Virus record (IMG/VR): IMGVR_UViG_3300028829_001468
Coordinates: 1 to 20,223 of that record
Reading direction: 5' to 3' (one strand)
Source: a virus
DNA: 20,223 bases
Shown: piece after piece, positions 1 through 17,391 of the stretch
Layout of the letters: each line of letters begins with the position of its first letter
How positions within the stretch are numbered: the first letter of the stretch is position 1
Translations under genes and position numbers: made by a program
The notes under the pieces: generated by a model
The model's input: the letters and a program-made list of their open reading frames with translations, nothing else
The model's database searches: none
Told to the model about the DNA's origin: nothing

Positions 1-366
1 ATATCCCGTAAAAACACTATTCGTTCCTCTTTCGTGAGCGGCTTCCCCATGAGTCATGCTACGAATAAGGGTCAATTTATCCATAACCTTTGCGGTTTCC
101 GGCAGTCTTTCGTTGATTTGAATACCTTCAACATTTGTATTGATAGCCTTCATAGAGCCACGATACTCTAATGGTGCTACTGTCTTAGGGTCAAAAGACT
201 CTTGAGCAGAAATACCTCCGGGAAGGTAGATAAAAATAGTGCTTTTCGCAGTGCCTTCAATGCTCTCGTAATGCTTCTGTTCACCAAAAGCAAACTGTGT
301 ACCAGCAGCAGCAAACATGCTGGTTTGTAAAAACGCCCTACGACCAATATGAACATGATTAAACAT
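1..366 (-). CDS. DUF1501 family exported protein, N-terminal part (runs off window)
   Basis: The reading frame is open from an ATG at 366 to the window edge (122 codons, C-terminus missing). It begins with a twin-arginine-type signal: a short polar start, GRRAFLQ at residues 8-14, then an alanine-rich stretch to about residue 28. After this come IFIYLPGGISAQESFDP, an EYRG motif, 'NTNVEGIQINERLP' and 'MDKLTLIRSMTHGEAAHERG'. This is the standard N-terminal order of the DUF1501 family, which is related to sulfatases and alkaline phosphatases. Most members read GGxSxxDTFD at the metal/nucleophile region; here it is GGISAQESFD, so the acid is Glu and the hydroxyl residue Ser. The ATG shares one base with the stop codon of the Cas4-like nuclease gene upstream (TAATG), so it is translated as part of the phage operon. 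Substrate is unknown. The family call is strong; export by Tat is inferred from the signal. Confidence 0.85.
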   Translation of the reverse strand, partial: MFNHVHIGRRAFLQTSMFAAAGTQFAFGEQKHYESIEGTAKSTIFIYLPGGISAQESFDPKTVAPLEYRGSMKAINTNVEGIQINERLPETAKVMDKLTLIRSMTHGEAAHERGTNSVFTGY

Positions 367-1403
367 TATCCCGGTGCCTCATAATAACCTATTGAAAATC
401 CCTTGTTAGTACAATCTTTGATGGTTTGATCCATCCCGTCTTTTTTTAACTTCTTCTCTATAAATATACACATTTTTTCGTCAGTTCCGGGCCAGTTGTT
501 TTTATAAAAGTGGCACAACTTTTGACATTTAAACGTATTCCTGTCTGACCTTATCGGTTTAGGTAGTACATTGTCACGTATGTCTTCAAACCGTTTCTTT
601 AACATTTCTAAAAATCTTTTCTCGTCTTCTGGTCCAAGACATATACTAAATGGCATAGGGTCAACCTTGCCGTCTTTATCTTTGTAAAAGAAGATGCTCA
701 TAATTCTGTTAGGAAAATCTTTATATATTTTTGATATAGCATAGAAATACAATAGTAACTGAGGGTCGTTTTCTAACTTTTTGTAATCTTTCACTTCGCC
801 TGTAGTCCAATCCATCCTACGACCACTTTTCCAGTCAACAACTTCGATTGTATCATCTGAAATAAGCGTTGTCAAGTCAATAGTACCCTTGATTGCTAAT
901 TGCCCTTTTACGGTTTCTCCGTCTATCTCGTATTCAAACTTAGCCCAATCTTCTTCAATCGGTATATCAAACTGAGCTTCTGGGTGATAAATATTTCTTT
1001 GTCTAGGATCGAAAAGGCCATCTGAATGATTTAAGAAAGTAAATACGGTATTTCTAACAACCTTTCTGTCTGCTGGATAAAATTTATGAATTGATCCTTT
1101 TGCATAATCTGTAACCGCTAGTTCACACATTCTCTCTACAAAATCATCTGTGTACAATTCATCTTTGGTTATTCTAATTTTACCGCACTTGTCATCTTCA
1201 ATAACTAGATATTTTCTCTTAGGGTTGTCCTGTTGGAATTTTTTAAGACCAGCAAGTATTTCCATAACTTTGTGCGCCATAGTTCCTAGATCTGCTTTTT
1301 TATTACTATCAGACCTATGCCCTAAAACATAAGTTAGAAAATATTGCATTTGACAGAAATCGTAGTTATTGTAACTAGACGATCTTATGTAGGTCACTAT
1401 CAT
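366..1403 (-). CDS. Cas4/RecB-like PD-(D/E)XK nuclease with likely Fe-S cluster
   Basis: This 345-residue protein has the layout of RecB-family exonucleases of the Cas4/AddB type. The N-terminus has SSSYNNYDFC with Cys17, followed by H44 in a GTMAHKVME context. The catalytic core is GTID (D176), then VVDWKSG (D190, K192), and a QLLLY motif (Q215, Y219). Near the C-terminus are C293, C297, C312 and C331; with C17 these can supply four cysteine ligands for a 4Fe-4S cluster, as in Cas4. It would act on DNA ends during phage replication, recombination or host DNA breakdown. Its ATG shares a base with the stop of the dNMP kinase gene (TAATG), and its own stop overlaps the DUF1501 start. No cas1, cas2 or repeat array is present, so a CRISPR role is unlikely. 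Confidence 0.85.
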   Translation of the reverse strand: MIVTYIRSSSYNNYDFCQMQYFLTYVLGHRSDSNKKADLGTMAHKVMEILAGLKKFQQDNPKRKYLVIEDDKCGKIRITKDELYTDDFVERMCELAVTDYAKGSIHKFYPADRKVVRNTVFTFLNHSDGLFDPRQRNIYHPEAQFDIPIEEDWAKFEYEIDGETVKGQLAIKGTIDLTTLISDDTIEVVDWKSGRRMDWTTGEVKDYKKLENDPQLLLYFYAISKIYKDFPNRIMSIFFYKDKDGKVDPMPFSICLGPEDEKRFLEMLKKRFEDIRDNVLPKPIRSDRNTFKCQKLCHFYKNNWPGTDEKMCIFIEKKLKKDGMDQTIKDCTNKGFSIGYYEAPG

Positions 1404-2188
1404 TAAATTTGCTCCAATAGAGAGTTAACTTCAGTTATCGTTTCTCCGATACCAATCTCTCTATTGTCAAACACATGCCAAAAATTACTATGATTGTAAT
1501 TATCTACATCTAGCGCAGTTTCGCTATCGTGGTCATCCTCATGAATATTTCTTTCTAATCTCAATACTTTGCCACCAGCTTTTTTGATGGCTTCAACCTC
1601 ATTAGGAAATCTAACATCTGCTATAATAGCAAGATCACTACCTTCTTTTGTGATTTTATTAACACAAGCGTTTGCCCAAACGTCTTTGTGAATCTTGCGC
1701 ATGATATCAGTTCCAAAGAATTGCATAAACTCACGCGCTGTCATTTCTCCCTCACGCCAATCCCAGCTCTTTCTAGCATCAATAGGCATCTTTACCATGA
1801 GATTCATGTTTTGAAATCGTGGCATATCCTCCCAACGAGTGTCTGGAAGAGTCTGGTTCTTTTGTTCATCTGTTCCGTATGCCTGATCGTATGTGAACCC
1901 AAACAAATTAATGCACATATCTTTCAGCGAGTCAGCAAAATTATATAGTTTTACATGAGGCCACATATTGTAGTGGGCATATTCCATAAACTGTTCATCT
2001 TTGCGCTCTATATCAAATTCACCCCACCCTTCTTGACCTTGAGCGTTTGTTGTCTTAATAAGCAGTTTGCCATTTTCACTGATGTTGTAATCTTTAATTA
2101 ATTCATTATTAAGTAAAATATTTCCATGAATTATGTTAGCAACCGTTGTTTTTCCTGCTTGCTTTTTACCAGAAATCCCTAAAATCAT
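1403..2188 (-). CDS. Deoxynucleoside monophosphate kinase
   Basis: This 261-residue cytoplasmic enzyme would phosphorylate dNMPs released from host DNA to dNDPs for phage DNA synthesis. A P-loop lies at the extreme N-terminus (ISGKKQAGKTTVA). Further on are the features of phage dNMP kinases: FADSLKDMCINLFGF, 'AREFMQFFGTDIMRKIHKDVWAN' split around the FGTD core, and IADVRFPNEVEAIKKAGG near residues 190-207, which is the DVRFPNE signature. The ATG overlaps the primase stop codon by one base (TGATG), so translation is probably coupled. The length is close to that of T4 gp1 (241 residues) with some insertion after the P-loop. The family assignment is good; nucleotide specificity cannot be read from the sequence. 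Confidence 0.85.
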   Translation of the reverse strand: MILGISGKKQAGKTTVANIIHGNILLNNELIKDYNISENGKLLIKTTNAQGQEGWGEFDIERKDEQFMEYAHYNMWPHVKLYNFADSLKDMCINLFGFTYDQAYGTDEQKNQTLPDTRWEDMPRFQNMNLMVKMPIDARKSWDWREGEMTAREFMQFFGTDIMRKIHKDVWANACVNKITKEGSDLAIIADVRFPNEVEAIKKAGGKVLRLERNIHEDDHDSETALDVDNYNHSNFWHVFDNREIGIGETITEVNSLLEQI

Positions 2189-3207
2189 CAGTACATACCC
2201 TTTAAATCTGAAAGAATGCTATTTTGTATAGCTTCTATTGACATGTCACCAATATCTTTATCCCTAAACTTTGGGAACTTTAAATTGAATGACCTAAATA
2301 ATTCTCTTTGTATCTTTATTTTTGACTCTCTGCCAGCTTGGTCGTTGTCTGTCAATATAACAAGCTTTGTCGCACCGCTTTTTAAGAGTAGTTCTTTTTG
2401 TTTATTAGATATATCTTTACCAAAAAGTCCAACACAATTGGTAACTCCAGCTTCGTACATTTTCCAAACATCTCCTTGTCCTTCTACAAGAAAAAGAGTA
2501 GCGGTTTCTACAGACCTAACTAATGCTTTGTCGTAATTATATAAATAGTTTGTTTTCTTAAAGCCGTCTGAAAACAAATACTTTGGCGACTGCCAAGGCT
2601 TAGTAGCTCTAGCTATAAAACCGACTTTCTCTTCCTTGTAAAAGACAGGGATGATAGCCCTATCCTTCATTGCCGATCCTCTTTGTAAACACTCTTCGAC
2701 ACCAAAATATCTAAGAGTATTGGTATAGAAACCTCTGGATTCAAAGTAGGGCGAGTTCCCACAGGTTTGTATGTCCTCTACTGTTATAGGGTTCAGTGTG
2801 ACTTTATCCTTAAAGATTTCCACAATTTCGCTAAAATCTTTGTAGGGGTCTTCTATTTTCTCCTGTTTATTTTCTGTGTCTCTAATTTTATATAGTTTAC
2901 ATACATATCTTAATACATCAGAAAAAGAAGCCTCTTGACCTCTTTCTGTAAATATAGATTGTATAAAACCAAATATGTTTGTATTATTATCTTCGTGACA
3001 ACTTCTTGTCCAACATCGCCAGTTTTTATGTGTTAATGATATAGATAAACCGTTGTCATTATCTCCATGATGTATAGGACATCTCATAAACACATTGTTG
3101 TTTTTATTTTGATAGTCTAGCTCAAGGTCGTTCAGCAGCAAGAACAAATCCTTGAAGATAATATCTCTAACTTCGTTTAAATTAAGTTTTTGTTTTGTTG
3201 TACTCAT
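2188..3207 (-). CDS. DnaG-type DNA primase (zinc finger plus Toprim)
   Basis: The gene encodes a primase that lays down RNA primers for lagging-strand synthesis and would work with the DnaB-type helicase two genes upstream. The start is placed at the ATG at 3207 (MSTTKQKLN, 339 residues). The frame extends to an ATG at 3258, but that extension lies inside a well-supported small membrane gene (3182-3340). With the 3207 start, a CHC2-type zinc finger covers about residues 43-71 (CPIHHGD, then CWTRSCH). The Toprim core lies at about 235-300: LFLVEGQGDVWK, with the catalytic-type Glu, then LVILTDNDQAGRES, the DxDxxG-like metal site. There is no helicase domain, so it is a stand-alone primase rather than a T7-type fusion. 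The stop overlaps the kinase start. Confidence 0.88.
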   Translation of the reverse strand: MSTTKQKLNLNEVRDIIFKDLFLLLNDLELDYQNKNNNVFMRCPIHHGDNDNGLSISLTHKNWRCWTRSCHEDNNTNIFGFIQSIFTERGQEASFSDVLRYVCKLYKIRDTENKQEKIEDPYKDFSEIVEIFKDKVTLNPITVEDIQTCGNSPYFESRGFYTNTLRYFGVEECLQRGSAMKDRAIIPVFYKEEKVGFIARATKPWQSPKYLFSDGFKKTNYLYNYDKALVRSVETATLFLVEGQGDVWKMYEAGVTNCVGLFGKDISNKQKELLLKSGATKLVILTDNDQAGRESKIKIQRELFRSFNLKFPKFRDKDIGDMSIEAIQNSILSDLKGMY

Positions 3208-3340
3208 ACCAAAGTAATCCAAAGTTAGCGACAGAGTAAGCAAACCACACAAGCGCATGGGGGTAATCTTTCTGTTTTAAATTACTGATTGCTGTAACTA
3301 TGTAGCACAGCGTAGCAATAATTAAAGCGTATACACTCAT
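3182..3340 (-). CDS. Small two-segment membrane protein (52 aa)
   Basis: A short frame from the ATG at 3340 encodes 52 residues: a hydrophobic stretch YALIIATLCYIVTAIS at 4-19, a polar loop NLKQKDYPHA, and a second stretch LVWFAYSVANFGLLWYE at 30-46, then a basic tail. The frame fills the only space between its neighbours. Its start overlaps the stop of the 73-residue gene upstream by four bases (ATGA), and its end overlaps the primase start by 26 bases, a typical phage junction. Small proteins of this pattern (a DYPH loop between two helices) recur in aquatic phage replication regions, but the function is not known to me. It probably sits in the host inner membrane. Confidence 0.7.
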   Translation of the reverse strand: MSVYALIIATLCYIVTAISNLKQKDYPHALVWFAYSVANFGLLWYEYNKTKT

Positions 3341-3558
3341 CTTTTTCTTTCAAACGGAGTCGGGTCACATCCATCAAATCTTTCTTCATCTAAGGTGTAA
3401 TATAGATTATCGCCTTCTTGTTTTATTAAATTATATTTGCATTTAGTTCTAAATCCACTTACATCATACACTTTTGTCATTTTGTATATTTTAGATGCGT
3501 TTGGAATTGTTATAACTTGATCGTGGTTTGGCCCACCCTTAAAGTGTGCTTTATACAT
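3337..3558 (-). CDS. Hypothetical protein, 73 aa
   Basis: This is a small soluble-looking protein with no family that I recognise. It begins MYKAHFKGGPNHDQ and contains several basic and aromatic residues, ending TPFERKR. Two ATGs are possible, at 3564 and 3558. The one at 3558 is preferred because AGAGG lies six bases before it, whereas the same bases directly abut the ATG at 3564. The chosen start overlaps the helicase stop codon by eight bases, and the stop overlaps the next small membrane gene by four. GGPNHDQ followed by beta-strand-like segments suggests a small single-domain beta protein. A role tied to the helicase/primase pair is only suggested by position. Confidence 0.7.
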   Translation of the reverse strand: MYKAHFKGGPNHDQVITIPNASKIYKMTKVYDVSGFRTKCKYNLIKQEGDNLYYTLDEERFDGCDPTPFERKR

Positions 3559-4996
3559 TGTCATCCTCTTGAAATGGTAGTTCTGCTCCCTCGATAGCGT
3601 CTTGACCTCCGGTTGCTAAAAGTTCATCTCTAGTTCTCAACTCTGTTAATAAGGCGTGTTGCCCACTCATATTTAAATTAATGTAATTTCCATCTTGCAT
3701 ACCGGGACCGTGGCGTGAAACAATAGGTACGAGTTTTCTATTACCTGCCCTTGGGCCGTCTTCTGCCGTTTCCTCTGCTGACTTCTCTTTAAAAATAGAG
3801 AATGATGTACACAACCAAATAAGCCTATCAGAACCGCTTACAGCGTCTGTAGATTCTTTGGTGATACCATCTCTATTTAACTGTACAAAGGACAGACAGG
3901 CAAAGTCATACTTAACTGCAAGATTATGAAGGTTAGTAATTTGAAAACCAAGAGCTTGATATTCTTGTATATTGTTTGTAATAGAGGTAGACGACATAAG
4001 TTTTAGATAGTCATAAACAACCAAACACTCATTTGTTCTACCGTTTTCATCTGTGCCAACTTCCTGTAAAACCCATCTCTTAATTACATTTAGGATAGAT
4101 TCAAATGGCATACCAGCTACTGTAGCGTAAGTATATGGTATACTTTTTATTTCTTCTACTGCGTTTTGAACAGCAATATGCTGCTCTTCGTTGTGTTCAA
4201 ATGCGCCAGTGGAAATGTCATTAATTGGTACTTTACTTATGCTTGCTATAATTCTATTAATGTGATCTTCTTTGCTCATCTCTGTATCAAGCATCAGAAC
4301 TGGCACTCCAGTCTTAGCTACGTTAACGGCTACATTGTCGCCAAATACAGACTTACCAACTTTTGGTCTAGCAGAGATTAGATCTACACATTTGCGACGA
4401 AGGCCGCCACCAATAGCGGCATCGTATCTATCAAAGCCAGTTGGTAAACCCAATTGATCACACTTGTTTTCAAGCAGAAACTCAATATACTCATCTACTC
4501 CATCACCTATCTTCTCTGGTTTTTTATTATTATCATCTTCTTTTAGAAAATCTACGATTGGATTCTCAACGATAGATACAATCTCATCAATATCTTCATC
4601 GCCGGTTATCTGTTCTGCATCAAATGATATTTGTTTAGCTAGTCTTTGTATCTTTCTAGCTAGTTCAAACTTTTTAATCTGCGCAGAAAAATGTAATATA
4701 TTATCTTTCTTGACGGGAAAATCCATCAACGATTTAATATATTTTAATTCTCTGGTATCCTGAAATATTTCGGAATACCCTAGACGTTCTGCGGAAGATA
4801 TAATAGAAGCTATGTCAACTTCTGCTTCACTGGTGAATATTTTCTCAAGACATTTATAAATAATCTGATTGTTATGCGCAGCAAAGCTGGTGTGATCTAG
4901 AATGTCAGAAACTTCAATGTAAGACTCTAGACCGTGAGCGAAAAGGCCAGCGAGAACTGCTCTTTCTGCTCCGAGATCCTGCAATATTTTGGTCAT
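3551..4996 (-). CDS. Replicative DNA helicase, DnaB family
   Basis: This 481-residue protein is a hexameric helicase that unwinds the phage fork and recruits primase. Residues 1-110 form the DnaB N-terminal domain (ERAVLAGLF, then DHTSFAAHNNQIIYKC). A linker follows, and the RecA-like motor begins at LPTGFDRYDAAIGGGLRR. Walker A is ARPKVGKS at 209-216. It is followed by VLMLDTEMSKED, the Walker-B-like strand CLVVYDYLKLM, and the SFVQLNRDG and SGSDRLIW motifs of the superfamily 4 helicases. Length and order match DnaB/T4 gp41-type helicases. The ATG lies two bases after the stop of the zinc-ribbon gene upstream. The C-terminus is acidic (FQEDDNV). Confidence 0.92.
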   Translation of the reverse strand: MTKILQDLGAERAVLAGLFAHGLESYIEVSDILDHTSFAAHNNQIIYKCLEKIFTSEAEVDIASIISSAERLGYSEIFQDTRELKYIKSLMDFPVKKDNILHFSAQIKKFELARKIQRLAKQISFDAEQITGDEDIDEIVSIVENPIVDFLKEDDNNKKPEKIGDGVDEYIEFLLENKCDQLGLPTGFDRYDAAIGGGLRRKCVDLISARPKVGKSVFGDNVAVNVAKTGVPVLMLDTEMSKEDHINRIIASISKVPINDISTGAFEHNEEQHIAVQNAVEEIKSIPYTYATVAGMPFESILNVIKRWVLQEVGTDENGRTNECLVVYDYLKLMSSTSITNNIQEYQALGFQITNLHNLAVKYDFACLSFVQLNRDGITKESTDAVSGSDRLIWLCTSFSIFKEKSAEETAEDGPRAGNRKLVPIVSRHGPGMQDGNYINLNMSGQHALLTELRTRDELLATGGQDAIEGAELPFQEDDNV

Positions 4997-5879: not shown

Positions 5880-6288
5880 TTTGTTTTCTCCAATCTTCTA
5901 TGCTGTCTGAGTATTTGAAAACCACAAGTTCTATTCCGTTTAGTTCGCACCAGTCTTCTTTTATAAAGTCTCTTTTCTTAGATGTCAAAAATCCAGCTTT
6001 TGTTTTATGAAAAAATTGTACAAATTCATAGTGTTGCTGCCCATGAACTTCTATACCTAAATATAAACTGGGTATAAAGAAGTCTAAGAACAGTGCCGAT
6101 TTTTTACTTGGACAACGAGAACCCGGAAGTTTAACTTCTTCCAAAACTGTATAACCTTTAAACATTTCTGCTAAGAGTTCTCTCGCTGTTATATGATACT
6201 TCGATTTAACGGTTTTGTCATTATTTCTTATAATATATTTTTTTAAGTTTATATTATACTGGCGACCGTTTAATCCTACTACTTTCAT
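5866..6288 (-). CDS. Vsr/DUF559-like PD-(D/E)XK endonuclease, 140 aa
   Basis: A single-domain nuclease is indicated. After an N-terminal helix with RELLAEMFKGY come the core strands FLDFFIPSLYLGIEVHGQQHYE (D69, E80, H82, Q84). This D...ExHGxQHYE pattern is shared by Vsr-type and DUF559-type nucleases. It is followed by KKRDFIKEDWCELNGIELVVFKYSD, the usual helix and strand that close this fold. The protein may be a free-standing homing or repair endonuclease, or a recombination nuclease serving the RecA/UvsX gene directly upstream. The ATG overlaps the recA-like stop by four bases. The position within a compact operon without flanking non-coding DNA favours a resident gene over a recent insertion. 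Confidence 0.7.
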   Translation of the reverse strand: MKVVGLNGRQYNINLKKYIIRNNDKTVKSKYHITARELLAEMFKGYTVLEEVKLPGSRCPSKKSALFLDFFIPSLYLGIEVHGQQHYEFVQFFHKTKAGFLTSKKRDFIKEDWCELNGIELVVFKYSDSIEDWRKQIDSR

Positions 6289-7394
6289 AATACATTTCTT
6301 ATTTCTTCATACAAAAATTCTTGAACCTCTACGTTTTGTTCTATGAAGTCACCAAGTTTTGACATGCCTTGGAACTTAAAGAACTTTTCTACTGCCTCTG
6401 GGCTGTCTACGTCCACGTCATTTTTCTTTAATAGCGCTTGTATTGCTGGATCTTTCTGGTTGTCTATAGCAGTAGTTATCGTATACCAAGCACCAGCTTG
6501 TTTAATAAAAGTTAGCTCATTTGCAATTTCGCAAAGTTCTCTAACCTCGTCAATTCCAGTTCCATACCTGATATAAGACACAGCATTAGAGTTTGGCTTA
6601 CCTCCAGCCGCCGTGGTTTTAACAAGCCAGTTGGCAACCTGACCGACATCATGCCCATTATCGTCTGTCTCTTCCCACTTTCCACGGTGAGTGATAACCA
6701 TATTGGTTCCCGCTTGATACTGAAGCATATTTCCAGCATCAGCCATCTTAGCTGGCGACCAGCGTGATCCACCTGTATTGGCAATATTGTGGGTGATAAA
6801 AATTAATATCGCTTTAGTTCTTGCTACATCATTACTAATTCGTTTAAAAAACATAGACAATAAACGTGGAAGCTGCGCTCTAACTCCTGTACGAACCTCA
6901 CCGTCTAGTTCGTCTTGCGGAACCATATTTGATACAGAGTCAATAATAGCAACAAAGTCTGGTTGATTTTTAACATATAACTCTAATGAGTTTAAGAACT
7001 CTTCAGCAGAGACTACAGTCTTATTGTCGGTAGCTTGAATGATTTTAATTTTATCTGGATCAAGACCTTTAATGCCTATAAAGTTTTCTTTAGTTAACCT
7101 ACCCTCTGTATTAAAGTATACAACATTTTTACCAGCAGCTTGAGCCTTTGCTGCAAAATAAAGAGATGTTGTCGTCTTGCCAGTTTTTGGATCTCCTGTC
7201 ATTACAACTACACTGCCTTCTCTAAGACCTCCACCAAGCGCCAAGTCTAAAGCTGGTGAAATACCTATAGTCTTAAAGTTCTGTAAGTCTGATAAAACTT
7301 TAGTTCCCTGTTCTACAATATCGCCGTACTTTGCAATAACTTGATTGCTAACAATATCGTCGTCAAATTTATTCTTCGCTTTCTTTTTTGCCAT
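6285..7394 (-). CDS. RecA/UvsX-like recombinase
   Basis: This 369-residue strand-exchange protein drives recombination-dependent replication and repair. Walker A is GDPKTGKTT at 67-75 after the typical ALDLALGGGLREG. The Glu that activates ATP hydrolysis lies in YFNTEGRL, and Walker B is DFVAIIDSVS around 146-155. The loop-2-like region contains ILIFITHNIANTGG. The C-terminal part (about 290-369) is a helical domain unlike that of bacterial RecA. Length fits phage UvsX/RecA proteins (about 350-390). The start overlaps the preceding gene by 26 bases and a basic N-terminus (MAKKKAKNK) follows it. Confidence 0.92.
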   Translation of the reverse strand: MAKKKAKNKFDDDIVSNQVIAKYGDIVEQGTKVLSDLQNFKTIGISPALDLALGGGLREGSVVVMTGDPKTGKTTTSLYFAAKAQAAGKNVVYFNTEGRLTKENFIGIKGLDPDKIKIIQATDNKTVVSAEEFLNSLELYVKNQPDFVAIIDSVSNMVPQDELDGEVRTGVRAQLPRLLSMFFKRISNDVARTKAILIFITHNIANTGGSRWSPAKMADAGNMLQYQAGTNMVITHRGKWEETDDNGHDVGQVANWLVKTTAAGGKPNSNAVSYIRYGTGIDEVRELCEIANELTFIKQAGAWYTITTAIDNQKDPAIQALLKKNDVDVDSPEAVEKFFKFQGMSKLGDFIEQNVEVQEFLYEEIRNVL

Positions 7395-9171: not shown

Positions 9172-9840
9172 TTAATTCTCCAGCGCGTTAAGAATTTTTC
9201 CTAATATCCCATTTCTTTGGATGTCACTATATCCTAATCTACATATACCAACACCATCTATTTCTCCAATCTTATCTATAATTTCTTCAAGACCACTCCT
9301 TGACCTTAAATCTGTCTGACGAATATCGCCATTGATAATAACTTTACTTCCTTGTCCCATTCGTGTTATAAACATTTTAATTTGCTCCCATGTGCAGTTT
9401 TGTGCCTCGTCTAATATCATATAGGAATTATGAAATGTAGACCCGCGCATAACTTCTAGAGGTGCGTATCTAATCTTCCCCTCATTATAATAGTGTCCAT
9501 AGTACGCTCTTCCAAGGAAAAACTTGAAATTTTCTTGCATTGGTAAAAGATAGGGCGCTATCTTGTCAAGTAGCTCTCCGGGTAGCGACCCTATCTCTTT
9601 ACCAGTACATACCAGCGGGCGCGTTACAATTACTTGATCTATGTCTCCTCTATGAAGATGTTCTGCGGCGATACCAGAAGCTATGTATGACTTACCGCAC
9701 CCAGAGGGGCCGGTACAAAACACAACATCGTTTTCTATAATTCCTCTTATATACTCTCTTTGCCTGTCGGTTTTAGCTTCTACTGATTTGACTTTTTGTG
9801 GAGAATTTTCTAGATCTTTTCTGGTTCTCTTTTTGGACAT
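9172..9840 (-). CDS. phoH: PhoH-like ATPase
   Basis: This 222-residue P-loop ATPase has RQREYIRGIIENDVVFCTG, Walker A GPSGCGKS at 44-51, the family motif VTRPLVCTGKEIGSLPG, and Walker B YMILDEAQN followed by TRMGQGSKVIINGD. These are the diagnostic PhoH features. The family links to a predicted RNA helicase/ATPase activity, and phage copies are widespread in marine viruses; host phoH can be phosphate-regulated, but no Pho box is seen here. The short N-terminus and complete core indicate an intact gene. AAGG lies about eight bases before the ATG. Confidence 0.9.
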   Translation of the reverse strand: MSKKRTRKDLENSPQKVKSVEAKTDRQREYIRGIIENDVVFCTGPSGCGKSYIASGIAAEHLHRGDIDQVIVTRPLVCTGKEIGSLPGELLDKIAPYLLPMQENFKFFLGRAYYGHYYNEGKIRYAPLEVMRGSTFHNSYMILDEAQNCTWEQIKMFITRMGQGSKVIINGDIRQTDLRSRSGLEEIIDKIGEIDGVGICRLGYSDIQRNGILGKILNALEN

Positions 9841-9861: not shown

Positions 9862-10434
9862 TTATTTACCAGTGCTGCCGAATCCCTCCTGCCCTCTTTG
9901 GCTGTCGTCTAAGTCTTCTACTTCTATTAAATCAAAATTATCTACTTTTTGAAATAATATTTGTGCTATTCTATCTCCTTTTCTGACTTGATAGCTACTG
10001 TCCGTGCGCGAGTTATAAAGTATAACGCCAACATCACCTCTATATCCAGCATCAATAACTCCTGCAAAAACGTCTAGTCCATTTTTGTAAGCCAGTCCAG
10101 ATCGGGGCCAAATCAAACCTGCAAATCCAGCGGGTATTGCCATTGAAATTCCGGTCTTTACTAACTTGTGATTGTTTACTCCAACTTGAGTGTCTTCAAG
10201 TGCGTACAGGTCATAGCCAGCATCATTTAAATTAGCCCTTGTTGGAATTGTTGCTTCTGGGTCTAATTTTTTTATTTTTAATTCTGGCCCAGTGTATGGT
10301 TTCATGTTTGGTGGTAAATTAGAATTTTTTGGGGTAGCACGACAAGATTTTTTCCACACAGGAAAAGGTGGGGATTTAGATATACTTTCTTCTAACATTT
10401 TTTCTCTAGCTTTTTCATCTGGGTGGTTTTCCAT
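9862..10434 (-). CDS. dut: dUTP pyrophosphatase with N-terminal extension
   Basis: This trimeric-type enzyme hydrolyses dUTP to dUMP, limits uracil in phage DNA and feeds dTMP synthesis. All five motifs are present: NDAGYDLYA, PRSGLAYKNG, GVIDAGYRGDVGV, RKGDRIAQILFQ and the C-terminal RGQEGFGSTGK. The core begins near residue 50, so there is an unusual N-terminal tail of about 42 residues (acidic/basic helix, then PPFPVWKKSC). The longer start is supported by an AGGAG six bases before the ATG at 10434. An internal ATG at 10308 would give a standard-length protein, but no such site was noted for it. It lies between the RNR and phoH genes, consistent with a nucleotide-metabolism unit. Confidence 0.92.
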   Translation of the reverse strand: MENHPDEKAREKMLEESISKSPPFPVWKKSCRATPKNSNLPPNMKPYTGPELKIKKLDPEATIPTRANLNDAGYDLYALEDTQVGVNNHKLVKTGISMAIPAGFAGLIWPRSGLAYKNGLDVFAGVIDAGYRGDVGVILYNSRTDSSYQVRKGDRIAQILFQKVDNFDLIEVEDLDDSQRGQEGFGSTGK

Positions 10435-10503: not shown

Positions 10504-12711
10504 CTAAATTATGTCGCACTTACCGCCAGCACAAGCTATTTCCTGTACCGGATTTACATTGTTAGTTTCTTCAACGACTTTTGTAAAATCTACATCTTGG
10601 TATTCTCTGTTAAGATCAACCCACTCCTTCCAATTATACACATCCTTCATGCAGTATGTAAGCTGTTTTACATCTCCATTAAAGTATTTTGAAGCAAATT
10701 TCTCGCACCTTTCTCTCCATGCGCGTTTTCCGTTGCCTTTTATCTTTTCTCCAAACCCAAGCAGACTGTCACAAGCCGCCCAGAGATTGTCTTCCCAAAG
10801 GGTTAGCGCAACCTCAATCAGACCGCTCACAAACAAAGAGGCATCACCATAGTGGGCGACCTGCTCGCTTGGAAGATAAACTGTAGTAAATGGAGCCTGT
10901 GGGAAATCTTTATCGCCAGAGATAGGTAAAAGAGAAATGCCACAGAAGTACTTTTTATTTCTGTAAATATATTTTTCTACCTCGTCCCATTCTTCTGGTT
11001 TAACATTGATAGTATTACTAACATTATGTGTTAACCAAGGTTGAGTGCATAAATCTTTATTGGTGCCATTCAACACCCAGTTTTGTTGTGTAGATTTCAC
11101 ATAGTCTAATAACTGTAATGCGCTTACTTGATTTTTAGTCTTGCCGCCATCCTTAACTTCTACACAGAAAGACACAACATCATCACTATCATTGTTGCTC
11201 CAAACACTTTCTTCACACGCTCTTGGGTTTTGTGTTCTGTAATAATTATAAATAGGTTCCATCTTATTAGCTTGGACACGACGGATATACCTCTTGGCAT
11301 GATGAGGATGAATGCCGCTGGACGTACCCAGAATACAGCTAGAAGTTCCCTCTGGTTTTATACAGGTAGTTCTCGCCGCCTGACGAACACCTATCAACTC
11401 CGCTATTCTAGCGTTCGTTTTCTTTACGATGTTAGCGCCGCGCTTCTGGGATAAAGGATCAAGACATACGTCAGCGTTTTCCATCATGCCAGTCATGCTA
11501 ACACCTAACAGCGCCTCTCTAGAGATAATTCTTTCTGATGCGCCACCAAGGTATTCAAACTCCGAAAAGCCCGCTTGTAGTGTACCAATAATTGTGGCGG
11601 CACGACAAGCATCAAAGAAGTCTTGTTCTGTTTTTATTTTTGAGCAGTTGATAGTTGACAGATTACACGCCTGCCATCCAGACTCGCCGGTTTCTTCACA
11701 TACGGGCCACATCCCAATCTCAACGCATGGATTAACAAGAAGCTCCGTACTGTCCGCCCAAACAAATCCCGGTTCACCAAACTCTTTAACAGAGTTCATC
11801 AATTCTGAAAATTGTTCTTTTGTTGTTCCGTTTCGCAGAAGTAAGGCAGAATTGTTTGATCTGCCTCTCTGGGGGTTGTCGATAAACCAAGTCCCTGTCT
11901 TAGCCGTTGCCATCTCATTATCGTCAGGGCTAAATACGCAAATGGTAGCAGAGCGGCGAACCCCGCCAGAAATAACAGCGTCAGCGGTGTGCATAACAAT
12001 ATCGTAAGCTTGGATTGGCTTGAGCTTGGTTTGTCCATCTTTTAATGCCTTGTCTAAGATTTTTCTAATATTTCCCAATGCTTTTTTTAGCGGCTCTGGT
12101 CCGGGAGCTTTTCCGCCACTAGACTTTAGGTAAGATCCCGCCGCACGAATTTCACTATAGTCAAAATTTATATTTTTACCAGCATACTCTCCAAAAACTT
12201 CTTCTTCTAGAAATTGATCAAAGTAACTAGAAACAAGAACGCCAACAGCATCACTCCAACCCTCAATAGTATCTGGTATTGTATATTTTTTACTACCGGT
12301 TTTTGCTGGTAGTAGTTCTGGTAGTTTTTCAATGTGGTGCTTTTGAACGCTAAAACCAGTACCGCAACCACAGAGAAGAAGATACATACACTCTTGAAAG
12401 AACCTAGTTCTGTCACAGAAAGATACAATGCAGTTGTACATTCTTGCGTTGTGTTTTCTTATGGGCGATCCTCCAAATTGTAGTGCGCGTTGGCTACCAA
12501 GAACTTTCTTCTTGCGCATTTGCTCATATGCCCATTCAATTTCTTTCTGGATATCTTTATTGTTTTCTAGATCTCCGTAAACATATTTGTCAAGCATCAT
12601 TTCCTTGACTCTATCTACTGCCTCGTTCCAAGTTTCTCGTCTTTTCTTTTCAGGAATCCAACGTGCATACTTACTAACAAATGTATAATCCATTAAAGAC
12701 TTCAAAGACAT
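10504..12711 (-). CDS. nrdJ: Adenosylcobalamin-dependent ribonucleotide reductase (class II, monomeric RTPR type)
   Basis: This 735-residue enzyme reduces ribonucleotides to deoxyribonucleotides. The length matches the monomeric Lactobacillus leichmannii RTPR (739). Visible catalytic features are MYNC (C94), NPCVE at 327-331 holding the thiyl Cys and the Glu, a second cysteine near QACNLS (C349), TTCIKPEGTSSCILGTSSG in the nucleotide-site region, and the C-terminal redox pair C727 and C732 (CAGGKC) that passes electrons from thioredoxin. There is no separate small subunit, as expected for class II. GAGGAA precedes the ATG. Activity needs host or imported vitamin B12. The large plus-strand frames inside this gene are shadows. 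Confidence 0.93.
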   Translation of the reverse strand: MSLKSLMDYTFVSKYARWIPEKKRRETWNEAVDRVKEMMLDKYVYGDLENNKDIQKEIEWAYEQMRKKKVLGSQRALQFGGSPIRKHNARMYNCIVSFCDRTRFFQECMYLLLCGCGTGFSVQKHHIEKLPELLPAKTGSKKYTIPDTIEGWSDAVGVLVSSYFDQFLEEEVFGEYAGKNINFDYSEIRAAGSYLKSSGGKAPGPEPLKKALGNIRKILDKALKDGQTKLKPIQAYDIVMHTADAVISGGVRRSATICVFSPDDNEMATAKTGTWFIDNPQRGRSNNSALLLRNGTTKEQFSELMNSVKEFGEPGFVWADSTELLVNPCVEIGMWPVCEETGESGWQACNLSTINCSKIKTEQDFFDACRAATIIGTLQAGFSEFEYLGGASERIISREALLGVSMTGMMENADVCLDPLSQKRGANIVKKTNARIAELIGVRQAARTTCIKPEGTSSCILGTSSGIHPHHAKRYIRRVQANKMEPIYNYYRTQNPRACEESVWSNNDSDDVVSFCVEVKDGGKTKNQVSALQLLDYVKSTQQNWVLNGTNKDLCTQPWLTHNVSNTINVKPEEWDEVEKYIYRNKKYFCGISLLPISGDKDFPQAPFTTVYLPSEQVAHYGDASLFVSGLIEVALTLWEDNLWAACDSLLGFGEKIKGNGKRAWRERCEKFASKYFNGDVKQLTYCMKDVYNWKEWVDLNREYQDVDFTKVVEETNNVNPVQEIACAGGKCDII

Positions 12712-14400: not shown

Positions 14401-15324
14401 CTATAAAAATTTTGTAGTTCCGTAATTAGGTAGTTCTCTTGCTGGAAATCCATCTACATCACTAAATACCCACGCTCCTTTTTGGGCTAACATTCCCCTT
14501 GCATCCTTTTCTCTAACCCAAAAGCTGCCGTCTGGTTGACCGTGAATTTTTGGGCCACTATTCCACTTACCCCAACTATTTTGTATTAGGAATAGAGTTT
14601 CTTTGTGTCTTTCTCTTGTGTCGTCGCAAGCGATCCAAGACATTGCATGGCTCCAGCTCTTTGATCTAGCCGCGACCCCTTTATTATCTCTTCTACTAGA
14701 GAATCCATAGTTAGAACAAACAGAGATACCGTAACCGTTAGCTAGTGCATCGCGAGCCTCTTCTACAGTAGTAATAAGAGAAATAGTTTTAACCTGATGT
14801 TTCCTAGATTCTTTTGTATAAATGTCAAAAGGTATTTTATGTTTTGCTCCAAGAGTAGAGTTGTATTTAGATAAGTCTACAATACCATAATCTTTTCGCA
14901 ATAGAATTCCACCGTTTTTATGAACATATTTTGCTGCGGTAGAACATCTCATACCTTGTTTCTTATGATCTCTACTTTGATATATCGCCTCCGTTGCGCC
15001 TCTGGCGATAAATTCTTCCGCATCTCCTTTTATATCTATCTCTACGCTTCTGGTGATGTCTATAGCATTTCTGGTAGAATGAGAAACACAATCTCCAGTT
15101 GTCTGCCTTTCAGATGGGCCAAAACTGGGATCGAATTTTAGTAGAGATTTGAATGGTAGAGATAGTTTTCCTTCACCATCCCCCCATAAAATATAAGCAG
15201 CAGCGCCAAACAAAGGATTTTTTAATTCACCAAGAAGTTTAGCTACCTCTTTTTTATCGCACTCAGCGCCTTTAAATCCTTCACGGTAAGCGTTGAGTAG
15301 CTCGCGAGGTGTTTTATAATCCAT
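14401..15324 (-). CDS. Papain-like (C1 family) cysteine peptidase
   Basis: The catalytic set of papain-fold peptidases can be read directly: Q74 for the oxyanion hole, C79 in TGDCVSHSTRN, H226 in SWSHAMSW, and N249 in FLIQNSWGKW. The spacing fits a single C1 domain of about 230 residues after a 70-residue N-terminal segment with no cleavable signal. It might process virion proteins, act as a lysis enzyme on envelope proteins, or travel in the virion; the sequence does not decide. It lies between the holin-like gene (15-base gap) and the lipoprotein gene. AGGA precedes the ATG by seven bases. Confidence 0.8.
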   Translation of the reverse strand: MDYKTPRELLNAYREGFKGAECDKKEVAKLLGELKNPLFGAAAYILWGDGEGKLSLPFKSLLKFDPSFGPSERQTTGDCVSHSTRNAIDITRSVEIDIKGDAEEFIARGATEAIYQSRDHKKQGMRCSTAAKYVHKNGGILLRKDYGIVDLSKYNSTLGAKHKIPFDIYTKESRKHQVKTISLITTVEEARDALANGYGISVCSNYGFSSRRDNKGVAARSKSWSHAMSWIACDDTRERHKETLFLIQNSWGKWNSGPKIHGQPDGSFWVREKDARGMLAQKGAWVFSDVDGFPARELPNYGTTKFL

Positions 15325-15553: not shown

Positions 15554-16114
15554 TCATTTCTCCTGTTTTAAGAAAATTAAAAACCCGTAATTTTTACTTC
15601 CATCCCTATATGGAAAACCAGAAATAGTTATTTTCTGATTGTTTGTTGCATGGGTAGAGAATTTTAGCTCTCGATTATTTTTTGAACATGAGTTAAACTC
15701 TCTAATGAAAGGTTCTCGCTCAGGTTCATCAATATAAGCAATCCAGTCTAAGCCTGTTATATTCTTGTTACCCATGAGTTCATGAAAATTGTGGTTAGCC
15801 CACAAAACATTCCCATTTTCGTCTACTTCAAGTATTACATCTTCAACGTTGTAAAATATTGCTTTTGATCTTTTGTCGATAATAACTTGTCGTCTGTCAA
15901 TCCTATTGACTGTATCTTTTATTGACGACCCTCCGTTAGTTGTCAACTCTTTTTTTATGTCTTCAACACAGTGTATTAACTGTTCATTATTTTTGTAAAA
16001 TTTTATTGATGGCTTTATTATATATTTATACAGACCGATAATCAATGCGTAGGCAGCGCCAAAAGCGCCGACAATAATACCAAAAACATCTAGGTGACTT
16101 ATTATTTGATCCAT
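15554..16114 (-). CDS. Membrane-anchored PAS-domain protein, 186 aa
   Basis: The start is the ATG at 16114 preceded by GGGGGT; the longer open frame to 16159 runs back through the terminator hairpin and is rejected. Residues 8-35 form a membrane segment (LDVFGIIVGAFGAAYALIIG). A helical linker follows with a TNGGSSIKDTVNRI motif that I associate with phage PAS proteins. The C-terminal 110 residues are a PAS fold: VILEVDENGNVLWANHNFHE, then GLDWIAYIDEPEREPF and ISGFPYRDGSKNYGFLIFL. No kinase, cyclase or other output domain is attached, so it may sense or bind a ligand or partner at the membrane. It is the first gene after the terminator and leads into the holin-like gene. Confidence 0.8.
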   Translation of the reverse strand: MDQIISHLDVFGIIVGAFGAAYALIIGLYKYIIKPSIKFYKNNEQLIHCVEDIKKELTTNGGSSIKDTVNRIDRRQVIIDKRSKAIFYNVEDVILEVDENGNVLWANHNFHELMGNKNITGLDWIAYIDEPEREPFIREFNSCSKNNRELKFSTHATNNQKITISGFPYRDGSKNYGFLIFLKQEK

Positions 16115-16127
16115 TTTACCCCCAGAG

Positions 16128-16154
16128 AAAAAAACCCTCCTCCGAAGAGGAGGG
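16128..16154 (-). terminator. Strong intrinsic terminator
   Basis: On the minus strand an eight-base-pair perfect stem, CCCTCCTC with GAGGAGGG, closes a TTCG tetraloop and is followed directly by seven T residues. It lies 27 bases after the stop of the repeat-containing structural-type gene and 14 bases before the PAS gene start. It would end most transcripts of the upstream unit; no promoter fits between it and the PAS gene. Confidence 0.93.
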
Positions 16155-16180
16155 TACAATTAAACTAAAATGAATCTCTT

Positions 16181-16899: not shown

Positions 16900-17391
16900 T
16901 TAACTGATTCTCTTTTTTATGATTTGAAGATTTTTCTTTATCTTATTTCTGATTGTTTCATAAGATGTATTTTTCTTTTTAGCGATCTCTGTGAGGGTCA
17001 TGTTTTTGTAGTATCTATCATATAAAATGTCGGGATCTTCACAGTTTTCGATCTCGTCTTTCAATTCAAACTTTAAATCTTGAGAGTATGCCTGATTTTT
17101 TAAATTTGAATTAAATTTACTAAAGACAGAATCTTCATAATAATTTGTAGTTTTATACCTTTTATTAAAATTTAATCGTTTTTGGCACTGTAGTCTTACG
17201 CCTCTGTGTAGAAATGTACTAAACTTAGCGCCTTTTGACTCGTCAAATTTATCTAAAGCGTTCCAAACTGCGTTATAAATACAGTTTTGAATTTCATCCT
17301 TACTTAAAGCAATGTTGTACCCACTAGCTGCACAGTTTGCTATATTCATTGTTTCCTTGTCTTCAAGAACTTTCTTCAATTGAGTTTCCAA
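16900..17391 (-). CDS. Phage sigma-70-like RNA polymerase sigma factor
   Basis: The protein (up to 163 residues) has a region-2-like segment, IYNAVWNALDKFDESKGAKFSTFLHRGVR split across a helix pair, with the FxxxxGxxFSTFLxxxVR pattern. A charged linker follows, and a C-terminal region-4 helix-turn-helix (MTLTEIAKKKNTSYETIRNKI) lies near residues 130-150. This is the layout of small two-domain sigma factors, as in phage late-transcription sigmas. The long start is a TTG at 17391 with AGGAG six bases upstream; an ATG at 17349 with AAGGAA before it is an equally reasonable start and begins 13 bases after the previous stop. It would redirect host polymerase to phage promoters. Confidence 0.8.
   Translation of the reverse strand: METQLKKVLEDKETMNIANCAASGYNIALSKDEIQNCIYNAVWNALDKFDESKGAKFSTFLHRGVRLQCQKRLNFNKRYKTTNYYEDSVFSKFNSNLKNQAYSQDLKFELKDEIENCEDPDILYDRYYKNMTLTEIAKKKNTSYETIRNKIKKNLQIIKKRIS

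Follow-up and report, generated by a model that had tools for sequence, protein, structure and literature searches.

Host-derived DUF1501 genes form a multi-paralogue cassette of putatively exported proteins in uncultured phages

The DNA analysed here (the window) is an entire public IMG/VR contig of 20,223 bases, and it belongs to a phage. The gene truncated at its left end almost certainly heads a cassette of phage genes for DUF1501 proteins of host origin. In related contigs, the genes of this cassette are intact, host-derived and located in true phage genomes. Because they carry one to four planctomycete-derived genes for enzyme-like proteins with predicted export, these phages may change or add to the outer layers of their hosts during infection.

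Phages are known to carry auxiliary metabolic genes of host origin, such as cyanophage psbA or phoA. The DUF1501 genes resemble these in being host-derived, intact, under purifying selection and apparently gained more than once. Unlike psbA or phoA, however, they occur as up to four paralogues of the same family per phage, encode a Tat-type signal and have no assigned function even in the host. The multi-paralogue, putatively exported cassette appears to be new, whereas host-derived accessory genes in phages and one BFVD phage protein named DUF1501 were already known. Neither the window fragment nor the second paralogue (see below) had a relative in a tblastn search against 50,697 phage records. 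With another copy of subfamily A, to which the window gene belongs, the search gave one weak local match (37% across 26% of the query length), which lies in a 6.9-kb 'Bacteriophage sp.' record of faecal origin that carries no annotation. PHROGs contains no DUF1501-type family, and no cultured phage with a close DUF1501 relative was found. Within the portions of the literature that a search on DUF1501 covered, we found no description of such a phage cassette, and the one phage-genome paper among them names the family as a weak match of a 61-amino-acid protein. A literature search for planctomycete phages or viruses found no paper. The DUF1501 domain itself is without any biochemical characterization (PMC4452313).

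The DUF1501 gene and the phage cassette

The truncated ORF of 122 amino acids matches the Pfam DUF1501 profile with 61 bits against a cut-off of 27 (E = 1.3e-16) and covers profile positions 1-84; a separate search gave 62 bits. Its N-terminus (MFNHVHIGRRAFLQTSMFAAAG) contains a twin-arginine-like motif, GRRAFLQ. These matches support the original prediction of a genuine phage DUF1501 protein with a twin-arginine signal. Its ATG overlaps the stop codon of the Cas4-like gene by a single base, as had been noted, and the gene follows a series of DNA-metabolism genes that lie upstream of the Cas4-like ORF in the same direction (dNMP kinase, primase, helicase, RecA/UvsX, PhoH, dUTPase and RNR; Table 1).

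Table 1. Features of the window around and upstream of the DUF1501 gene
Feature	Position	Strand	Basis or remark
DUF1501 gene, subfamily A, 5' part	1..366	-	122 aa, cut by contig end; ~424 aa in relatives
Tat-type signal region, residues 1-30, MFNHVHIGRRAFLQTSMFAAAGTQFAFGEQ	277..366	-	Sequence; RR invariant in aligned viral and cellular relatives
Twin-arginine codons R9 R10	337..342	-	Sequence
DUF1501 motif LPGGISAQESFDPK, residues 48-61	184..225	-	Sequence
THGEAAH motif, residues 105-111	34..54	-	Family-invariant H111; region expected to hold the nucleophile
Cas4-like PD-(D/E)XK nuclease	366..1403	-	PDDEXK_1, E 6e-19; stop overlaps DUF1501 start by one base
Deoxynucleoside monophosphate kinase	1403..2188	-	Pfam/PHROGs search
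DNA primase (Toprim)	2188..3258	-	Pfam/PHROGs search
DnaB-like replicative helicase	3551..4996	-	Pfam/PHROGs search
RecA/UvsX-like recombinase	6285..7394	-	Pfam/PHROGs search
PhoH-like protein	9172..9840	-	Pfam/PHROGs search
dUTPase	9862..10434	-	Pfam/PHROGs search
Class II (B12-type) ribonucleotide reductase	10504..12711	-	Pfam search

Because the window is the whole contig, the gene cannot be extended leftward. Relatives are encoded in at least 140 IMG/VR stretches when the 122-amino-acid fragment is used as the query, and in 169 when an alignment of full-length copies is used. Near-identical genes on other contigs run unbroken to 424 amino acids, which answers the worry that the frame might be broken beyond the window edge, and the full-length copy in locus L006 matches the entire DUF1501 profile (1-390) with 382 bits. 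The DNA around the Cas4 stop and the DUF1501 start is identical in L002 and L005, which come from two other metagenomes. Because other metagenomes share this junction, the Cas4/DUF1501 join is no chimera. The truncation at the contig edge and the bacterial affinity of the close relatives might suggest an assembly chimera or host contamination at the contig end, but this idea can practically be dismissed in view of the shared junction, the presence of DUF1501 after the Cas4-like gene in 27/50 phage loci with enough downstream sequence, and the well-supported clades that the viral groups form on their own in the tree described below. A chimera or a broken frame at the edge was thus ruled out by the identical junctions together with the intact 424-amino-acid relatives.

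The 50 Cas4-like loci in this count each had at least 2.5 kb of downstream sequence. A DUF1501 gene usually follows when the Cas4-like protein is at least 71% identical to that of the window (26 of 28 loci), and rarely when the identity is 65-71% (1 of 22). L089 was scored as having no downstream DUF1501 gene, yet it possesses one with a start called within the Cas4 gene. In L083, a DUF1501 gene of another subfamily directly adjoins the same Cas4 end, so that the site after Cas4 behaves as a slot for DUF1501 genes. In L004 and L009, the cassette is positioned after other genes. Of the coupling to DNA-metabolism genes that had been proposed, the recurrent Cas4 junction holds, whereas the coupling to Cas4 is variable rather than fixed.

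A second DUF1501 gene, encoding 410 amino acids, comes next with a 4-base overlap in the closest relatives (among them L002, L006, L007, L009 and L010), and it scores 294 bits, above the Pfam cut-off. A profile search of 158 fetched viral loci detected DUF1501 genes in 121, with one copy in 28, two in 58, three in 23 and four in 12; these numbers are lower bounds because the loci are cut, and some contigs occur in both locus sets. All four DUF1501 genes of L050 exceed the Pfam cut-off. The paralogues are interspersed with genes for small secreted proteins and for a soluble PAP2-type phosphatase. The PAP2-superfamily phosphatase adjoins the cassette at L006:12866-13534, L037:6568-7236 and L159:13339-14004, and no membrane segment is predicted in the two copies checked. 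The L159 contig (152,655 bases) also encodes RIIA-like and tail-spike-like proteins.

Two further arrangements of A-type genes were observed. L011 and L019 are parts of one 32-kb contig (IMGVR_UViG_3300030330_003793) with two A-type genes, one near either end, which share 89% and 84% identity with the window fragment. L074:9998-11278 is a lone A-type gene on a viral contig of 319,857 bases. Because its gene setting is different, the A-type gene is not limited to one phage lineage.

Planctomycete ancestry and putative hosts

The phages repeatedly use four DUF1501 subfamilies. Identities between the viral proteins and their cellular planctomycete relatives are 60-67% for A, 40-43% for B, 60-63% for C and about 49-55% for D; the top row among the cellular relatives of A is L159, itself a phage contig inside a SAR202 metagenome-assembled genome (MAG). 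In a tree of 334 full-length proteins, every viral paralogue group adjoins its own cellular group from Planctomycetota. B forms one viral group (55 sequences), C one (12), D two (16 and 29) and A five small ones (22, 14, 7, 17 and 1), the grouping within A having shifted when sequences were added. We claim at least two acquisitions of subfamily A by phages, and the total number of transfers is only a rough estimate as the cellular sample consisted of best hits. Planctomycete genomes contain 25 to 98 DUF1501 genes each (four genomes, counted under a scoring limit), but only four subfamilies are reused by phages, which suggests selection for particular functions.

The GGISAQESFD site of the window protein had been regarded as a departure from the family motif. 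This view does not hold for its nearest planctomycete subfamily, in which LPGG(M/A/C)AHQE(S/T)(F/W)DPKP is usual; planctomycete subfamily A proteins have LPGGMAHQESFDPKPY or a near variant at this site. In B-type paralogues (e.g. L050:7112-8368), a highly conserved residue is altered: position 59, which is Asp in 98% of the cellular sequences, is His in 80% of the viral B copies (QFETFHAP).

On the host side, the genes around DUF1501 are recurrent. Cellular subfamily A loci contain a PPC-domain gene in 76 of 79 cases and a PSCyt2-PSD1 gene in 66 of 79. A PSCyt2-PSD1 (DUF1549/DUF1553) neighbour is present in every one of the 25 loci that the D search retrieved and in 4 of 25 subfamily C loci, the flanks of which are short. 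This gene neighbourhood points to a partnership of DUF1501 with PSCyt2-PSD1, although the usual absence of the neighbour in subfamily C speaks against it. Homologues of PPC or PSCyt2-PSD1 were not found in the viral loci at E values up to 1e-3. The subfamily A proteins of Planctomycetota (PF07394) share 60-67% full-length identity, the signal, the motifs and the putative metal ligands with the phage A proteins, but they are encoded together with PPC and PSCyt2-PSD1, whereas the phage copies lie in a DUF1501-only cassette within the replication region. As judged from the sequences, the phages carry the DUF1501 half of the host modules alone.

The ancestry of these genes suggests planctomycete hosts for an uncultured aquatic phage group that is present in many metagenomes, and Planctomycetota are accordingly the putative host phylum. 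Next to the cassette, a small secreted phage protein is encoded (L075:12496-12873) that matches the C-terminal portion of large proteins (e.g. L341); these occur in 122 of the 147 genomes from one planctomycete order, and this similarity appears to be a second trace of a planctomycete gene source. A search for CRISPR spacer-type matches with one 20-kb query and 297 planctomycete genomes gave none that was convincing, the matches being short or due to coding homology.

Two different phage contigs with DUF1501 cassettes, L159 and L334, are binned in the SAR202 MAG OSU_TB57 (contigs 7 and 13). Beyond these two contigs, no close relatives were present in 151 genomes of the phylum of this MAG, and SAR202 was rejected as the gene source. 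Because close relatives are missing elsewhere in the phylum, mis-binning is likelier than a SAR202 origin of the genes. The MAG's own DUF1501 gene (contig C16) is of a different type and lies near a DUF1800-like ORF, an identity read from the sequence.

Conservation and predicted fold

The twin arginines are 100% conserved in all nine viral groups and are also invariant in the aligned cellular relatives. As in Tat substrates, a hydrophobic stretch comes after them close to the N-terminus. In an alignment of 84 sequences, D288, H290, E331, R334, D345, H346 and H111 (L006 numbering) are kept in every viral group. All of these except R334 are putative metal ligands, and their correspondence to the Asp/His set of the alkaline phosphatase superfamily is proposed from sequence. 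Median pairwise dN/dS values in eight viral groups are 0.034-0.074, and the full phage copies are under strong purifying selection. The phage genes are in use, and export is probably required. The strong selection on up to four specific subfamilies in the phages singles out the paralogues of importance during infection and opens their function to tests.

An AlphaFold model built from 84 diverse sequences has a pLDDT of 92.6. In VIA-align comparisons, it gave Z scores of 18-20 to NPP phosphodiesterases, ENPP and PafA alkaline phosphatase, and of about 17-18 to sulfatases; according to the model, DUF1501 has the fold of the alkaline phosphatase superfamily. NPP and PafA share this fold over about 245-280 aligned residues, but the identity is 11-14% and the nucleophile region of the phage proteins has no Thr/Ser/Cys that is conserved across the paralogues. 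The best viral structure match, A0A6J5M742 (BFVD, uncultured Caudovirales phage, 'DUF1501 domain-containing protein'), bears the same Pfam name but is 12% identical over the structural alignment. A sequence search of the PDB gave no closely related solved structure.

The stretch expected to hold the nucleophile reads THGEAAH in A, VGSDGxH in C, SH(G/K)DSSH in most B and STREADH in most D proteins. Its last His is invariant across the paralogues and a further residue is mostly acidic, while the position expected for the nucleophile varies between them (T/V/S/A, H/G/T, A/G/S) and no Ser, Thr or Cys is conserved. In a weak profile alignment, E331 is aligned with the Asp of the sulfatase D-H-G motif. 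The kinship to sulfatases and alkaline phosphatases that had been proposed is thus retained at the level of the modelled superfamily fold, with no conserved nucleophile seen in the aligned sequences. For this reason, we do not call the phage proteins sulfatases or phosphatases, and DUF1501 may not be a conventional hydrolase at all.

Proposed role in infection

Because the host A and D genes lie beside PSCyt2-PSD1 and no such partner was found in the phages, the most likely role of the phage proteins would be to provide, or substitute for, the DUF1501 part of the host's envelope modules in the course of infection, a proposal to which we give even chances. In an infected planctomycete, we infer, the phage DUF1501 proteins would fold in the cytoplasm and then be exported by the Tat system of the host. 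Once in the periplasm or at the cell surface, they would work as esterase-like, metal-dependent members of the alkaline phosphatase superfamily, together with PPC and PSCyt2-PSD1 proteins of the host. A host function in the envelope or in nutrition would thereby be maintained or redirected during infection, as with cyanophage psbA. More tentatively, a planctomycete-phage lineage may have repeatedly captured, from several subfamilies, the DUF1501 half of the envelope modules characteristic of the host and may run a dedicated multi-enzyme programme on the host envelope in infection. If this is true, the repeated capture would point to the function of DUF1501 in bacteria.

In the main alternative, the export signal and the several paralogues with different substrate regions would belong to enzymes that remodel the surface for the phage. 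These would strip or modify surface glycans or the receptor, so that superinfection is prevented or progeny can escape from the host matrix. The small secreted proteins and the PAP2 phosphatase beside the cassette, as well as the glycosyltransferase in the window, are consistent with such a role. We nevertheless consider it rather unlikely: the genes are grouped with replication, not with lysis or virion genes, each paralogue has stayed near a single host subfamily, and no link to a receptor is known.

Nutrient scavenging, the role that had been suggested at first, appears improbable; exported phosphatases or sulfatases would here draw on organic matter to provide phosphate or sulfate for the synthesis of phage. 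The superfamily fold and the nearby PhoH-like gene would agree with it, but the nucleophile position is not conserved, up to four divergent paralogues exceed the need of simple scavenging, and PhoH is common in phages and hence not specific evidence. Slightly less probable still are non-catalytic exported proteins, which would serve as decoys or binders and titrate or block either surface defences or the DUF1501/PSCyt partners in the host. Such proteins would account for the lack of a conserved nucleophile and for the absence of the host partners from the phages; the putative metal ligands, however, are invariant in every viral group, and dN/dS is low along the whole gene.

Several other genes of the window were noted. 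The glycosyltransferase gene has similar-looking counterparts among the ORFs of related genomes. The 307-amino-acid protein encoded at 14401-15324 (-) has no match in Pfam or PHROGs, and its GDCVSHS, SHAMSW and QNSWG motifs resemble those of papain-type cysteine proteases. The protein at 15554-16159 (-) combines an N-terminal membrane-like segment with a PAS-like domain (E = 2.6e-4, under the Pfam cut-off), which is unusual for a phage. A small sigma-70-like protein is encoded at 16900-17391 (-), with regions 2 and 4 marginally above the Pfam cut-offs, and is possibly a late-gene sigma factor.
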